From positions 1 through 42,499 of the forward strand of contig CANESK010000007.1 of assembly GCA_947441075.1 (NCBI GenBank): a stretch of DNA of 42,499 nt. Direction: 5' to 3'. Of this stretch, positions 1,167 to 34,971 are shown one piece after another (the stretch's first letter is position 1; every line of letters begins with the position of its first letter). The position numbers and the translations under genes are program-made. A model generated the notes under the pieces. That model had not been told where the DNA came from. It saw only the letters and a list, made by a program, of their open reading frames with translations, and ran no database searches. This DNA is from Verrucomicrobia subdivision 6 bacterium (GTDB lineage: Bacteria; Verrucomicrobiota; Verrucomicrobiia; Methylacidiphilales; Verrucolacustridaceae).

Positions 1167-3011
1167 CTACTTGGCGGTACGGAAGCCGATACGGGTTGAG
1201 CCCCCAGGTTTCGAAGCGGTGCGGACAGCATCCAAGTTGCTCACAGAAGCCTCATCTAAAAAGTTTCCACCGATGAATAACGGTTCGAGGGGATTGGGGG
1301 AGGCGATCCATTCGCTCAAATTGCCACCGAGGTCGCGATGTTGGTATGGGCCAGTGTCGTCGGGGACCGACTCGGCGGGGAGGACATGAACATAGGTGTC
1401 AGGGTTGGTACCTGCGGGCAGATGAATGCCGAGATTGATATTGGGGGCGGTGGCGCTGGTGCCCCATGGGTAGGGTAGGTTGCCCTTTCCGGACGCGGCA
1501 CGGATCCACTCGCCTTTGGAGGGGAGACGACGACCTAGCCACTTGGCGTAGGCGCAAGCACTGGGGTAGTCGACTCCGAAAACGGGGGTATCACGAGAAA
1601 TACGGATTTGGCCATTGTATTTGTCCACCTTACGGGCGCGGGTGATCATCTCCTGCCAATCGTTGGGTTGGAAATCTTCGGGCTTCGTTTTGGATGCGGC
1701 GGTACCGAAGGGAAGATAGGTTTTCCAATTCTTCTCCGACTGCATGGCGGTGAGAAACTTTTCGTACTGACCGATGGTGACTTCGTGGCGATCGAGTTCG
1801 AAGTCGTGGACATGGATAGATTCTTGGCCCGAAAGATATTTACCTTTAGGCACTGGGATGGATTCGTTGCCGAGCTTCCCTGGGAGGTCGGTGAGGAAAG
1901 CCCAAAAGAGGACGCGAACAAAAAGAGCGAAAAAAGCGGCGACACAAATGGATGTGATGATTATCGTCCGTTTTCTTCGGATACGAGCGCGGATGGCTTT
2001 TTGAGTCGCTTCAATTTCCTCTTGGCGAACGTGAACGGCTTGGACTCCTGCGAGTTGACGTTCGAAGTCCCGAGTTCGGCGCATGAAATCGAAGGCAGAA
2101 GTGCCTGGATCGCGTAAAAGTTGGAGGAGGGAAGCGGTTTGGGAAGATTTGGGAAGAAGCGGTTCCAAGATAGAGGCGAGGTTGCTGGAATTATCATGGA
2201 GGGTAGCTTCGGGGGCGCCGGGGTAGGCGGCGGGGTTGCGGAGGCGTGGGGTGCCACGGGTGGAGAGGGTGTAGTCGTAGGCGCTCAGGATGCGGGCGGG
2301 GATGGAGGAGGATTCCATTTCCCAGAGGACGGAGCCAAGGGCAGAGGCAAGGCGAGCACAGGAGACGAGATCAGGTTTTTCTTCTGCGAGATGGAAGTGG
2401 AGCAAAGAGGAGTTGGCGACGGGTTCTAGAGCAACAAAGATGCGTTCGTCAGAAGGAATGGATTCGTAAAGGGAGTAGATGGAGGCGTGATTGAGACGGG
2501 CGTAGTTGCGAATGGCTTTAGTAAAATGGGGTGAGCCAGCGGGTGGAACAAGAACTTGGACATTTCGTTCAAGTTGATGGTGTCGAGCCCAGTAGAGCCG
2601 ACCCAGCGGATGAGGACCTGCGGGAGAGATGATGTGGTAGGGGCCGAAGCTACGACCCGAAAAATTCTCCATAAGTTCAGCCATGGCGAGGGGGAGTTGT
2701 TCCTCGGCAGGAAGGCAGGGGATAGGAAAAGCGGAGGGTAGAGTACCGCTCAGGTCGAAGCGACTGATGAGTCCAACGGATATCTCAGGGCCGGCTTCGG
2801 CCAGGAGAAGAATCTCTTGGGCGCGGTTTTGATCGGCCCAGAAGATATCGGTCAAGAGAAGGGCGGCGTGGCGGTTTGAAGTCAGAGCTGTGGTGAGAGC
2901 AGCAAAATCGGAGAGGGGTTCAAGGGTGGCGGTGGGAAAGAATTCGCGAAGAAGGGCGGCGAGATTCGCCGCGGCTTCTGCATCCTCTTGGGCGAGGAGA
3001 ATCGTGGGCAC
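1167..3011 (-). CDS. Multidomain protein: degenerate receiver-like N-terminus, pseudokinase-like middle, one TM helix, C-terminal SUMF1/FGE-sulfatase-like domain
   Basis: 614-aa ORF. 'GRSFGPYHIISPAGPHPLGRLYWARHHQ' resembles a kinase P-loop. TM is 'TIIITSICVAAFFALFVRVLFWAFL'. SUMF1 hallmarks include 'VTIGQYEKF', 'PVFGVDYPSACAYAKWLGRRLPSKGEWIRAASG', 'YPWGT', 'GGNLSEWIASP' and 'TRIGFRTAK'. Confidence 0.8.
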   Translation of the reverse strand: MPTILLAQEDAEAAANLAALLREFFPTATLEPLSDFAALTTALTSNRHAALLLTDIFWADQNRAQEILLLAEAGPEISVGLISRFDLSGTLPSAFPIPCLPAEEQLPLAMAELMENFSGRSFGPYHIISPAGPHPLGRLYWARHHQLERNVQVLVPPAGSPHFTKAIRNYARLNHASIYSLYESIPSDERIFVALEPVANSSLLHFHLAEEKPDLVSCARLASALGSVLWEMESSSIPARILSAYDYTLSTRGTPRLRNPAAYPGAPEATLHDNSSNLASILEPLLPKSSQTASLLQLLRDPGTSAFDFMRRTRDFERQLAGVQAVHVRQEEIEATQKAIRARIRRKRTIIITSICVAAFFALFVRVLFWAFLTDLPGKLGNESIPVPKGKYLSGQESIHVHDFELDRHEVTIGQYEKFLTAMQSEKNWKTYLPFGTAASKTKPEDFQPNDWQEMITRARKVDKYNGQIRISRDTPVFGVDYPSACAYAKWLGRRLPSKGEWIRAASGKGNLPYPWGTSATAPNINLGIHLPAGTNPDTYVHVLPAESVPDDTGPYQHRDLGGNLSEWIASPNPLEPLFIGGNFLDEASVSNLDAVRTASKPGGSTRIGFRTAK

Positions 3012-3092: not shown

Positions 3093-3797
3093 TCAGCGTC
3101 TTGGGTGCCGTGAAAGAGCGAGGCGATGGATGGCGTAGGCTGCGCCGAATCCATTATCGATATTCACAACGGTGACGCCAGGGGCGCAGGAGTTGAGCAT
3201 ACCGAGAAAGGCGGTGAGTCCTTGAAGGTGGGCACCATAGCCAACGGAAGTGGGGACAGCGATGAGCGGATGGCGTAAGAGGCCCCCAAGGACGCTGGGC
3301 AGGGCGGCTTCCATTCCAGCAACAACGATAAGGGCGTCAACGGATTGCAGTTTAGGTAAATGGCGGAGGGTGCGATGGAGGCCAGCGACCCCAATATCAT
3401 AAAAACGTTCGGGCCGGTGGCCGAGAAATTGGAGCGTGACGAAGGCTTCTTCGGCTACGGGATGATCGGAGGTTCCTGCGGCGCAGATAGCGACATGGAG
3501 AGAAGGGGTGAGGGTGCGAGGTGGGCGAGATGCTGCAAGAGTGAAAGTGCGGGCGGCGGAGTGATACTTCCCCTTAGGAAAAAGCCGACAAAGAGGTCGG
3601 GCTTTGGCAGATTCGACACGAGTGACGAGGACAGGCTGTTTTTCGGCATGAAGGCGACGAGTGATGGCGGCGATTTGTGAAACGGTTTTGCCTGCGCCGT
3701 AAACAATTTCCGGGGCGCCTAGGCGCTGCTGTCGCTGCAGATCGAGCTCGGCAAAAGCGCGAGGCAGAAGGGCGCGGGAGGGGCGACGGCTCGCCAT
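3093..3797 (-). CDS. larB: LarB-like nickel pincer cofactor biosynthesis protein (PurE/AIR-carboxylase superfamily)
   Basis: 'GAPEIVYGAGKTVSQIAAI', 'AAGTSDHPVAEEAF', 'DIGVAGLHR', 'VDALIVVAGMEAALPSVLGGL' and 'PTSVGYGAHLQGLTAFLGMLNSCAPGVTVVNIDNGFGAA' match the LarB pattern. Confidence 0.87.
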   Translation of the reverse strand: MASRRPSRALLPRAFAELDLQRQQRLGAPEIVYGAGKTVSQIAAITRRLHAEKQPVLVTRVESAKARPLCRLFPKGKYHSAARTFTLAASRPPRTLTPSLHVAICAAGTSDHPVAEEAFVTLQFLGHRPERFYDIGVAGLHRTLRHLPKLQSVDALIVVAGMEAALPSVLGGLLRHPLIAVPTSVGYGAHLQGLTAFLGMLNSCAPGVTVVNIDNGFGAAYAIHRLALSRHPRR

Positions 3798-3802
3798 AAG
3801 AA

Positions 3803-5176
3803 TTAGGCGAGGGCGACTTGCAAGCGGGGAAGTAGATCGGTGATAGCTAATCTTTCCTGCTTCATGGAGTCACGATGGCGGAGGGTGACCGTATCTTTTT
3901 GGCCTGCGAGGGGGCCGTCTTTGGCGCCTTCAAGGGTCTCAAAGTCGACGGTGATTCCAAAGGGTGTTCCGATTTCGTCTTGGCGGCGGTAGCGGCGGCC
4001 GATGGCGCCAGCCTCATCATAAAACACAGGAAAGTGTTGGCGAAGAGTTGCGGTGATGGAGCGGGCTTTTTCGACAAGTTCAGGCTTATTTTTGAGGAGG
4101 GGAAAGATGCCAGCTTTAATCGGGGCCATGCGCGGATGAAAGTGGAGAACGACGCGGGTTTCTTTGGCGCCTTTATCGTCGGCAACTTCTTCCTCATCGT
4201 AGGCTTGGCAGAGGAGGGCGAGTGCGGTGCGATCGACACCTGCGCTGGGTTCGACGACGTGAGGTAAAAACTTTTCTCGGGTTTCTTCGTCAAAATATTC
4301 CAAGGGTTTCCCGCTAGCTTCTTGATGCTGTTTTAGATCGTAATCGGTGCGGTAGGCGATTCCTTCGAGTTCCTCAGTGCCAAAGGGAAATTCGTAAAGG
4401 AGGTCGTAGGTTCCTTGGGAGTAGAAAGCACGGTCAGCCTCTGGGACGTCGAGGACAGTGATCTTGCTGCGGGGGATGCCGATGGATTCGTACCAGGCGA
4501 GGCGATCGGCAAGCCATTTCTCAAGCCAGACTTTGCCTTCGGTGGGGCGGACAAAAAACTCTACTTCCATCTGTTCAAATTCACGGGAACGGAAGGTGAA
4601 GTTCCGAGGATTAATTTCGTTGCGAAAGGCTTTGCCGATCTGAGCGATGCCGAAGGGAAGTTTTTTACGCGATACTTCGAGGACATTTTTGAATTGGACG
4701 AACATGGCTTGGGCGGTTTCGGGGCGGAGGTAGGTAAGGTTGCGTTCGTCTTCCACGGGGCCGACGTAAGTTTTGAACATGAGGTTGAATTGGCGAGGCT
4801 CGGTGAGCTCACCTCCGCAGGTGTTGACCAATTTGCTGGGTTTTTGGGGGCAGGGGGTGGTGGCTAGCTGATCAGCGCGAAAGCGACTCTTGCAGGTTTT
4901 GCAATCAACCATTGGATCGGTGAAGGTGGCCTCGTGTCCGCTGGCCTGCCAGACGGCTCGACTCATGAGGATAGAACCATCCATGCCGACGATATCGTCG
5001 CGGAGTTGGGTCATGGCCCGCCACCAGTCGGCTTTGAGGTTGCGTTTGAGTTCGGCGCCGAGCGGACCGTAATCCCAGGCTCCGTTGAGGCCGCCATAAA
5101 TCTCGGAAGATTGGAAAATGAAGCCTCGGCGTTTGCAAAGGGCGACAATCTTTTCCATGCGGTTATCGGTTTTCAT
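3803..5176 (-). CDS. glyS: Glycine--tRNA ligase, class II homodimeric type
   Basis: 'MEKIVALCKRRGFIFQSSEIYGGLNGAWDYGPLGAELKRN', 'YLRPETAQAMFVQFKNV', 'AFRNEINPRNFTFRSREFEQMEVEFF' and 'VVEPSAGVDRTALALL'. Five bases separate its stop from the larB start. Confidence 0.95.
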   Translation of the reverse strand: MKTDNRMEKIVALCKRRGFIFQSSEIYGGLNGAWDYGPLGAELKRNLKADWWRAMTQLRDDIVGMDGSILMSRAVWQASGHEATFTDPMVDCKTCKSRFRADQLATTPCPQKPSKLVNTCGGELTEPRQFNLMFKTYVGPVEDERNLTYLRPETAQAMFVQFKNVLEVSRKKLPFGIAQIGKAFRNEINPRNFTFRSREFEQMEVEFFVRPTEGKVWLEKWLADRLAWYESIGIPRSKITVLDVPEADRAFYSQGTYDLLYEFPFGTEELEGIAYRTDYDLKQHQEASGKPLEYFDEETREKFLPHVVEPSAGVDRTALALLCQAYDEEEVADDKGAKETRVVLHFHPRMAPIKAGIFPLLKNKPELVEKARSITATLRQHFPVFYDEAGAIGRRYRRQDEIGTPFGITVDFETLEGAKDGPLAGQKDTVTLRHRDSMKQERLAITDLLPRLQVALA

Positions 5177-11719: not shown

Positions 11720-12604
11720 CTAAACCGAGGGAGTGCGGCGGCGACGGAGGAATGCGCCGATAGTGAGTGAAACAAGGACGAGTGAACCGGTGGTGGGTTC
11801 GGGTATGGTCAAGACCGTTGCATTTAGCATCATAGTGCCGTTCCAGACGGAGTTGTCACCCGATGCGAAGGTATCGGCAGCTGTGCCACCTTCCCAACTA
11901 TTGTCGAACTTGATCGGTTGAATGAAATTATCTGGCGCTGTAAAGAGAACATCACCTGGACGGTTCTGGGTGCCGAACCAGACTGCGTAGCTTGCGCCGC
12001 TTTTGACAGCCCAAGTATTGTTGGTGGTGGAGTCGAAAAGTTCAACGGGCGCGGTAAAGGAGAAGCCCGCTAAGTCGGAGCCAGAACGAATTCGAGAGTT
12101 CTCGTTGGTGGTGTACCACTGGATAGAGTAGCCGTAGGTGGTGGAGCCTGGAGTAAGACCCGCGTTGTTTTGATTCATGCTAACGACTTTGTAGTTCCAC
12201 CCTGCTCCTGCAGTGGCGGAGAGGACGGAGGCATCGTTCGAAGGATTTAGTTTGAGTTGCTGCCCCCAACTGGAGGCGTTGGCGTAATTTGAATAAAGGA
12301 AGATATTAAAGGAGGCGAGACCCTCTCCTGCGGAAAGACCGTTGGCCCAGCGGTCGTAATTTATGTAGGAGTTTGGCGAGGTGTAGGTTGCGGCCGAGTT
12401 AGCTGAATTTACGTTATAGACATCTTGGGCCACGACTTTTTGGTTGCCCGCTGCTTTGGAAGTGCCCCGAGAAATGGGTGAGGAAATCAGTCCACCGGCA
12501 TTGAAATCAAAGCGAGCATAACTGGTGACATCCGCGAAAGATGAGCTCCCCATGGCTACAAATAACAAAATGGGGAAGTGATGAAGGGACCGTACGGCTT
12601 TCAA
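11720..12604 (-). CDS. PEP-CTERM sorting-domain secreted protein
   Basis: Signal-peptide-like N-terminus 'FPILLFVAMGSSSFA'. C-terminal 'IPEPTTGSLVLVSLTIGAFLRRRRTPSV' has the PEP motif, TM segment and Arg cluster. Confidence 0.88.
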   Translation of the reverse strand: MKAVRSLHHFPILLFVAMGSSSFADVTSYARFDFNAGGLISSPISRGTSKAAGNQKVVAQDVYNVNSANSAATYTSPNSYINYDRWANGLSAGEGLASFNIFLYSNYANASSWGQQLKLNPSNDASVLSATAGAGWNYKVVSMNQNNAGLTPGSTTYGYSIQWYTTNENSRIRSGSDLAGFSFTAPVELFDSTTNNTWAVKSGASYAVWFGTQNRPGDVLFTAPDNFIQPIKFDNSWEGGTAADTFASGDNSVWNGTMMLNATVLTIPEPTTGSLVLVSLTIGAFLRRRRTPSV

Positions 12605-30195: not shown

Positions 30196-31512
30196 ATGGC
30201 AACTCCACGTGAATCCACCGTAGAGCATGAAGCGAGCATGACGGGAACCTCCCTGCACAGCGGGGCCAAGGTCCGCTTGACGGTGAAACCTGCGCTAGCG
30301 GGGTCAGGGTACCAGTTCCGCAGGATGGATTTGGCGGATCAACCGACGATTCCCGCCTTTTTAGAGAAAGTGAAGCAGGTGGAGCGTGCGACGACCTTGG
30401 CTGAAGGCAGTGTCAAGGTGAGCACAGTTGAGCATCTTCTCTCGGCGCTACGCGGGTTGGAGATTGATAACGCACTGATTGAGTTGGATGCGAACGAACC
30501 TCCGATTGGCGATGGGAGTGCCGCTCCGTTCTTGGAGATGCTGGCCAAGGCGGGTCGAAAAGAGTTGGAAGCTCCGCGAACTGTTTTTGAGATTCGCGAG
30601 CCAGTTTGGGTGACGACTCCTGATGGAGGCTACATGGCGGCCTTGCCCCACGATGGTTTCAAGGTTTCCTGTACCAACGCCAATCATACTCCTTTCCATA
30701 CTCAGTATCTGAGCATTGAGGTGGGTGCTGAAAATTACGCGAAGGAGATTGGTCGGGCGCGAACCTTTGTTTTTTACGAAGAAGTGGAACCTCTTTTGGC
30801 CAAGGGGCTGATTAAGGGCGGGAGTTTGGAAAACGCCATCGTGATTCGTGGCGAGTCGGTCATGAGTAAAGAACCGCTCCGCTACCCAGACGAATTCGTT
30901 CGGCACAAGATTTTGGACATCATGGGGGATTTGGCTTTGTTCCCCGTGCCGATTCGTGCGCATATTTTGGCTTCGAAAACCAGTCACGGGCTGAACCTGC
31001 TTTTCGCCAAAGCCCTCTACAAGGCGTACCGTGCCTACCAGTCCGCGTTGATGCCTGTGGAAAATATTCCAGTGGGCGAGAGGTCGATGGATACGAACGA
31101 GGTAATGAAGATTCTGCCTCATCGTTATCCGTTTCTGATGGTCGACAGGATTCTGCGATTTGAAGGGGCAACTAAAGCGGTGGGGATGAAGCTGGTGACG
31201 ATCAACGAACCTTATTTCCAAGGACACTTTCCTGATCATCCGATTATGCCTGGAGTGTTACAGATCGAGGCGATGGCGCAGGTAGCCAGCATCCTTTTGT
31301 TACGGAATACGGAGAATGCGGGGAAATTGGGATATTTCATGAGCGTGGATAAAGCTAAATTTCGTAAGCCAGTGATGCCAGGGGACGTTTTGACCATGCA
31401 TGTGGAATTGACCAAATCACGAGGGAAGATTGGCAAAGCTGCCGGGCAGTGTTTGGTGAACGGGGAAGTGGTTTCGGAAGCGGAGCTGATGTTTGCGATC
31501 ATCGATCGCTGA
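30196..31512 (+). CDS. lpxC/fabZ: Bifunctional UDP-3-O-acyl-N-acetylglucosamine deacetylase / 3-hydroxyacyl-ACP dehydratase
   Basis: LpxC: 'TSLHSGAKVRLTVKP', 'STVEHLLSALRGLEIDNALIELDANEPPIGDGSAAPF', 'FVRHKILDIMGDLALF'. FabZ: 'IMKILPHRYPFLMVDRIL'-like region and 'FQGHFPDHPIMPGVLQIEAMAQVA'. Confidence 0.96.
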   Translation: MATPRESTVEHEASMTGTSLHSGAKVRLTVKPALAGSGYQFRRMDLADQPTIPAFLEKVKQVERATTLAEGSVKVSTVEHLLSALRGLEIDNALIELDANEPPIGDGSAAPFLEMLAKAGRKELEAPRTVFEIREPVWVTTPDGGYMAALPHDGFKVSCTNANHTPFHTQYLSIEVGAENYAKEIGRARTFVFYEEVEPLLAKGLIKGGSLENAIVIRGESVMSKEPLRYPDEFVRHKILDIMGDLALFPVPIRAHILASKTSHGLNLLFAKALYKAYRAYQSALMPVENIPVGERSMDTNEVMKILPHRYPFLMVDRILRFEGATKAVGMKLVTINEPYFQGHFPDHPIMPGVLQIEAMAQVASILLLRNTENAGKLGYFMSVDKAKFRKPVMPGDVLTMHVELTKSRGKIGKAAGQCLVNGEVVSEAELMFAIIDR

Positions 31513-34419: not shown

Positions 34420-34971
34420 ATGAGTAATTGCATTAAAATGATATCACCTTCGCAAAAAAGATTGGTGGCAAGTCTAGTTGTTGGCGCATTTATTTTTCTA
34501 GCTCGACCAATCAACGCACTGGCGGAAACGACATTTGTCTACACTTTCAATGATGCCATCAACCTAACGTTGAGTGGGTCGTTTGGAGAGAGGTATAGCA
34601 CCTTCATTCCCGTCGCACCGAATATTTTAAATGCCGACGCGTTTGTATCTTTGAGCGGCGGGGGTTTAACTGGAGCGGAGGGTCTTGCAACGCTTTTTGC
34701 TCGTTTCTTGGAGCAACCTGATGTCCAACTTGGTAATTGGAATGCTTTCCAGCCAGCGGATTTCGCTTCGGACCTTACGCCTCTTACCTTTTCAGGTTCA
34801 GCTACCTTTACCGGACTTGTGATCGAGTGGATACCAGTGCCGCAAAGTAGGCAGTTAAGTATTCCTGTTGGAACTGCACTGACAGTGAGCGTGCCTGAAC
34901 CCACCACCGCGGCATTTTTGGCTGCTGGCGCTGTGGTGATTGTTAGCTTAGCTCGTCGCCGTAGAGATTGA
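34420..34971 (+). CDS. PEP-CTERM sorting-domain secreted protein (small)
   Basis: N-terminal signal 'LVASLVVGAFIFLARPINALA' and C-terminal 'VPEPTTAAFLAAGAVVIVSLARRRRD'. Confidence 0.88.
   Translation: MSNCIKMISPSQKRLVASLVVGAFIFLARPINALAETTFVYTFNDAINLTLSGSFGERYSTFIPVAPNILNADAFVSLSGGGLTGAEGLATLFARFLEQPDVQLGNWNAFQPADFASDLTPLTFSGSATFTGLVIEWIPVPQSRQLSIPVGTALTVSVPEPTTAAFLAAGAVVIVSLARRRRD

Follow-up and report, generated by a model that had tools for sequence, protein, structure and literature searches.

The window, that is, the whole stretch of 42,499 nucleotides analysed here, carries on its minus strand a gene of a freshwater Verrucomicrobium for a protein in which a receiver-like domain, a kinase-like domain, a transmembrane helix and an FGE/SUMF1-like domain follow one another. 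The gene, its parts and the two genes upstream of it are as follows.

1167 to 3011, minus strand: whole gene, encoding a 614-residue receiver-pseudokinase-TM-FGE-like protein (open reading frame; same architecture in relatives)
3011 to 3009 and 1169 to 1167, minus strand: GTG start and stop codon of this gene
2658 to 3011, minus strand: N-terminal receiver-like domain, residues 1-118 (AF2 domain model, pLDDT 83.8; Foldseek; relatives score PF00072)
2103 to 2657, minus strand: predicted pseudokinase domain, about residues 119-303 (AF2; Foldseek; relatives score PF00069/PF07714; table of catalytic residues)
1977 to 2102, minus strand: helical juxtamembrane linker rich in charged residues, about residues 304-345 (AF2 secondary structure; low pLDDT at 323-328)
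1896 to 1970, minus strand: single transmembrane helix, about residues 348-372 (hydropathy 2.55 at 350-368)
1170 to 1865, minus strand: FGE/SUMF1-like domain, predicted extracytoplasmic, about residues 383-614 (PF03781, E 2.1e-25; PDB relatives)
3093 to 3797, minus strand: LarB-like gene (by reading of the sequence), upstream and co-directional (open reading frame; cluster c9)
3803 to 5176, minus strand: glyS, glycyl-tRNA synthetase (by reading of the sequence), upstream of larB (open reading frame; cluster c3)

The 614-residue frame accounts for all motifs quoted by the first-pass annotation, which had given the gene its correct coordinates; the strand was corrected to minus, and the plus strand from 1167 to 3011 contains many stops. 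ILLAQED (residues 4-10), ALLLTD (50-55), ISVGLIS (77-83), IPCLPAE (97-103), VQVLVPP (151-157) and TASKPGG are present where expected, as are the Gly-rich-loop-like stretch GPHPLGRLYWARH (residues 132-144) and the HRD region PARILSAYDYTL (residues 238-249), and the positions assigned to these motifs agree with alignment to Pfam-scoring relatives and to the canonical kinase L121. Since a single codon and then a stop directly precede the GTG, there is hardly room for another start; the other members of the genus share this start context. Promoter and terminator scans returned nothing above chance.

Throughout the genus genomes examined, the gene comes after glyS-like and larB-like genes. The LarB-like cluster c9 adjoins it in four other genomes of the genus (L048, L050, L051 and L052), and the glyS cluster c3 lies beside it in a member of another family of the order (L043) and nearby, in divergent orientation, in L082. 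Elsewhere in the window, two proteins (11720-12604 and 34420-34971) end in a PEP motif, a hydrophobic stretch and an Arg cluster and appear PEP-CTERM-like by eye, and a single 438-residue frame (30196-31512) reads, also by eye, as an LpxC-FabZ fusion. The genome carries several receivers and one canonical Ser/Thr kinase above the Pfam cut-off (L147:1444-2280, G000:C3), with VALK, HRD and DFG intact.

FGE-sulfatase is the one domain that Pfam detects in the window protein (90.3 bits against a cut-off of 23.3), so the identity of the receiver-like and kinase-like parts rests on relatives, in which receiver, kinase and FGE domains exceed their Pfam cut-offs in the same order. Among members of the order less divergent than the window protein, L029 scores for the receiver (3.6e-9), L023 for PF00069 (7.9e-8) and L030 for PF07714 (5.5e-9), and the FGE domain scores as well; L081 carries a receiver (5.8e-17), DUF4388 (4.8e-20), a kinase (5.1e-13) and an FGE domain (1.2e-40) on one chain, and relatives reach 5.8e-17 for PF00072 and 4.1e-14 for PF00069. 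Structure prediction agrees with the earlier reading of two folds upstream of the membrane helix: in Foldseek searches the AlphaFold model of the window protein matches solved kinases (PknA, 5.7e-10; AMPK, TM 0.65 normalised by target), and a model of residues 1-119 alone matches receiver domains (best E 5.5e-5, TM mostly 0.6-0.75). A linker of about 400 residues rich in Pro, Ala and Val lies between receiver and pseudokinase in L035:5117-8275, so the two domains are separable. Two further proteins, L040 and L041, have the receiver, membrane helix and FGE-like domain and no kinase-like domain.

The receiver retains its phospho-acceptor, Asp55, and has Ser82 in place of the Thr; Asp55 is present in 15 of 15 aligned members of the genus. 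The acid pair reads QE, and the conserved Lys, whose usual Lys-Pro setting had already been reported missing, is gone by alignment, the region reading FPIPC. The label "all-degenerate" given to the protein by the first-pass annotation does not hold for the receiver, which is only partly degenerate. How intact the receiver is differs greatly between members, and a single mechanism may therefore not hold for the whole family: acid pair and acceptor Asp are retained in L068, L084, L085, L089 and L090, and the domain is fully intact (acid pair, Asp and Lys) in L068, L084, L085 and L090. These four would suit an inside-out arrangement, in which a histidine kinase phosphorylates the receiver and so controls what the outer FGE-like domain binds. 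Such signalling fits poorly, however, with the window genus, which lacks the acid pair and the Lys, with family f9, where Glu replaces the acceptor Asp, and with the examined members of family f11, from which the receiver is absent and some of whose genomes we presume to be Akkermansia; we consider it improbable.

Loss of the VAIK and HRD residues, read previously from the letters alone, is borne out by alignment, and the catalytic residues of the kinase-like domain are not intact. The VAIK Lys is replaced by L154, HRD reads ARI (A239-R240-I241), the DFG Asp has become Asn (N259-P-A) and the Gly loop is altered to GPHPLG. With D246 at the HRDxxxxN position, the two metal-ligand positions carry D246 and N259, their order swapped. 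The domain is predicted to be dead, unable to transfer phosphate in the usual way.

Catalytic positions were counted in a 77-member class-wide alignment with L121 as the reference kinase, leaving out the alpha-C Glu column, at which the reference row is out of register. The DFG Asp is kept in none of the 77 members and the HRD Asp in at most one; Asn occupies the DFG position in 72 and Asp the first metal-ligand position in 38, and the VAIK Lys is retained in 10, all outside the order. The near-complete absence of both Asp residues across the class argues that kinase loss is not local decay, and what had been taken as particular to this gene is a trait common to the family. Most simply, the dead kinase would be ancestral to the family, with the VAIK Lys lost later in part of it. 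In a tree of 64 members, rooted at the midpoint only, the window genus forms one clade adjoining family f2 of the order.

The prevalence of Asn at the DFG position, the swapped D246/N259 pair and the 10 class members with a VAIK Lys could also be read as signs of a kinase fold with another chemistry, such as transfer of AMP or glutamate as in SelO or SidJ. Both of these enzymes, however, retain ATP- and metal-binding residues (PMC12599244), whereas the window protein lacks the Lys, the HRD Asp and the DFG Asp and has an altered Gly loop, which makes this explanation highly improbable in our view.

When 60 genomes were searched, partial or complete matches to the protein turned up in 20 of the 21 genomes of the genus, some of them broken at contig ends. 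Matches also came from several families of the order; the genomes sampled from families f7 and f8 gave none. The query for the class-wide search was L029, a more canonical member of the order, chosen in view of the divergence of the window protein; it yielded some match in 229 of 286 genomes, not all of them full-length family members. Relatives with the same architecture, for which the first-pass annotation had suggested a search, were found across the genus, order and class. Matches outside the class were rejected as family members: among the matches listed, the best cover the kinase N-terminal part or the FGE domain alone.

Comparison of close relatives gave dN/dS values of about 0.13-0.2 for all three domains (receiver, kinase and FGE), which argues that the gene is maintained by purifying selection; FGE-part values for L001-L005 and L005-L006 were ignored as an indel artefact of the ungapped comparison. 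The number of lost catalytic motifs might suggest a decaying pseudogene fusion without function. This is already contradicted by the intact frame, by the presence of at least part of the gene in nearly all sampled genomes of the genus, by these dN/dS values and by the occurrence of the family throughout the class, and its probability is next to negligible.

One strong hydrophobic stretch (about residues 348-372) agrees with the membrane helix placed after the kinase by the first-pass annotation. Its flanks hold seven Lys or Arg residues on the N-terminal side and one on the other, which by the positive-inside rule points to an N-in/C-out topology, with the receiver and kinase predicted inside and the FGE-like domain outside. 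PDB relatives of the latter are CalU17, SUMF2 and FGE, with weak matches to PorK/GldK. As had been noted, its C-terminal region contains no Cys, C486 being the sole Cys of the whole domain. Formylglycine chemistry is unlikely here, since no Cys stands where FGE enzymes carry their pair. Missing FGE cysteines are common in the superfamily and say little by themselves.

In about 20 of the loci examined, the gene immediately 5' of the family gene encodes a TPR-type membrane protein; this holds for most class loci examined and, within the order, for L032 and L042. This partner protein has a TPR-like stretch and a conserved C-terminal domain without a Pfam family (L086:4038-5114, cluster c1, alignment A2). 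Downstream, in seven class loci, there is a gene for a putatively secreted protein, also without a Pfam family (cluster c4; L078:6708-7634, L086:6927-7904); a gene that reads as amidase-like comes after it in L078 and slightly further on in L081. In the window genus, family gene and usual partner gene are mostly unlinked. The window genome's partner homologue (L141:6745-7683) lies on contig C55, away from the family gene, and adjoins genes reading as Gld-type ABC transporter, DUF4340 and nadB; in another genome of the genus (G008, L143), partner, nadB and family gene stand side by side. The partner gene is also present in the f7 and f8 genomes where the family gene was undetected. Given the scarce linkage in the genus and the partner's occurrence by itself in f7 and f8, the two genes need not act together.

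Linkage of the family gene itself to the Gld-type ABC cluster was considered and rejected, as in the window genus, and in some members of the order, it is the partner gene that this cluster adjoins. GldG/GldF/DUF4340-like genes were found beside the family gene in none of the 38 loci searched and on its contig only in G008 (L143). Neighbouring genes were clustered and in part Pfam-scanned, and none resembled type VII secretion components. These observations bear on the alternative that the protein has a structural place in an envelope or secretion complex: its pseudokinase would hold a ring or platform on the cytoplasmic side and its FGE-like domain would sit in a periplasmic assembly, much as GldK/PorK does in type IX secretion, with no sensing involved. 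The FGE-like domain of PorK/GldK, which the protein's own domain matches weakly, has a structural role, a membrane pseudokinase of a secretion system is known in EssB/YukC, and there is a TPR membrane partner, which in the window genome is beside Gld-type ABC transporter-like genes. Among the neighbours of the family gene in the examined loci, however, nothing was recognised as a secretion-system gene, and in the 38 loci searched Gld-like genes do not adjoin it; a purely structural role appears rather unlikely.

Among known proteins, Pkn1 comes closest in architecture and EssB/YukC in mechanism. PMC1262709 describes an FGE-bearing chlamydial kinase, which we take to be Pkn1. In this protein of the wider PVC group a kinase-like domain is likewise followed by a C-terminal DUF323/FGE-like domain (PMC1262709). 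Pkn1 autophosphorylates and is predicted to be cytoplasmic (PMC5177608), whereas the window kinase is predicted to be dead and has a membrane helix between it and the FGE-like domain; no receiver is described for Pkn1. EssB/YukC, the type VII secretion membrane pseudokinase that acts as a scaffold, is, like the window protein with its predicted topology, a single-pass membrane protein whose cytoplasmic pseudokinase lacks all three motifs (PMC12599244). It differs in having neither receiver nor FGE-like domain and in its phylum and gene context. The mycobacterial MviN pseudokinase is fused to a multi-pass flippase. A member of the ActPs3 family, it is also membrane-linked (PMC12599244), but its motif losses are different, and FGE-like and receiver domains are absent from it. 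SUMF2 (pFGE) and other Cys-less FGE-like proteins resemble the window protein in sequence and in having an FGE fold apparently without formylglycine chemistry, although SUMF2 is a stand-alone lumenal protein without kinase or receiver fusion.

Seven bacterial pseudokinase families (ActPs1-3, GLW, CP1, DYD and DLHK) are annotated in a 2025 review, whose text names neither Verrucomicrobia nor FGE, sulfatase, receiver or response regulator (PMC12599244), and our literature search found no paper on such a family in Verrucomicrobia. We rate the proteins described here as a putative new pseudokinase family with unusual architecture, judged against the seven published families by the text of the review. 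They appear to be non-catalytic membrane scaffolds or relays that have so far gone undescribed, and not broken enzymes.

For the window protein itself, a role as a non-catalytic transmembrane scaffold or relay is, on balance, somewhat probable. It would be an inner-membrane protein with one membrane helix, its FGE/SUMF1-like domain exposed outside the cytoplasm and its pseudokinase and receiver-like module on the cytoplasmic side. The outer domain, with formylglycine chemistry lost, would probably bind a protein or a small ligand, and it is at this point that the "ligand-binding relay" suggested by the first-pass annotation enters, as a conjecture. Binding outside, or to the TPR membrane partner, may then alter the docking of putative cytoplasmic partners by the pseudokinase and receiver. 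Where the receiver is intact, as in some relatives, phosphorylation by a histidine kinase could provide an input; in the window genus this input appears to have been weakened or lost, and the receiver may serve as a docking module. Only tentatively do we extend the scaffold or relay reading to a whole family of so far unrecognised transmembrane signalling or scaffold proteins. Their kinase would have been dead since the family's ancestor and would link a ligand-binding FGE-like domain on the outside with a receiver on the inside, acting jointly with a TPR membrane partner; the family would extend across much of the class, apparent Akkermansia genomes included.

Few bacterial pseudokinases have a known job. 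In this family a dead kinase is joined to a receiver, a membrane helix and an FGE-like domain; together with its spread through much of the class and its recurrent gene partner, this makes the role testable, possibly in a cultivable relative. The family could teach whether a kinase fold can provide the coupling within a membrane receptor, and which purpose Cys-less FGE-like domains serve.
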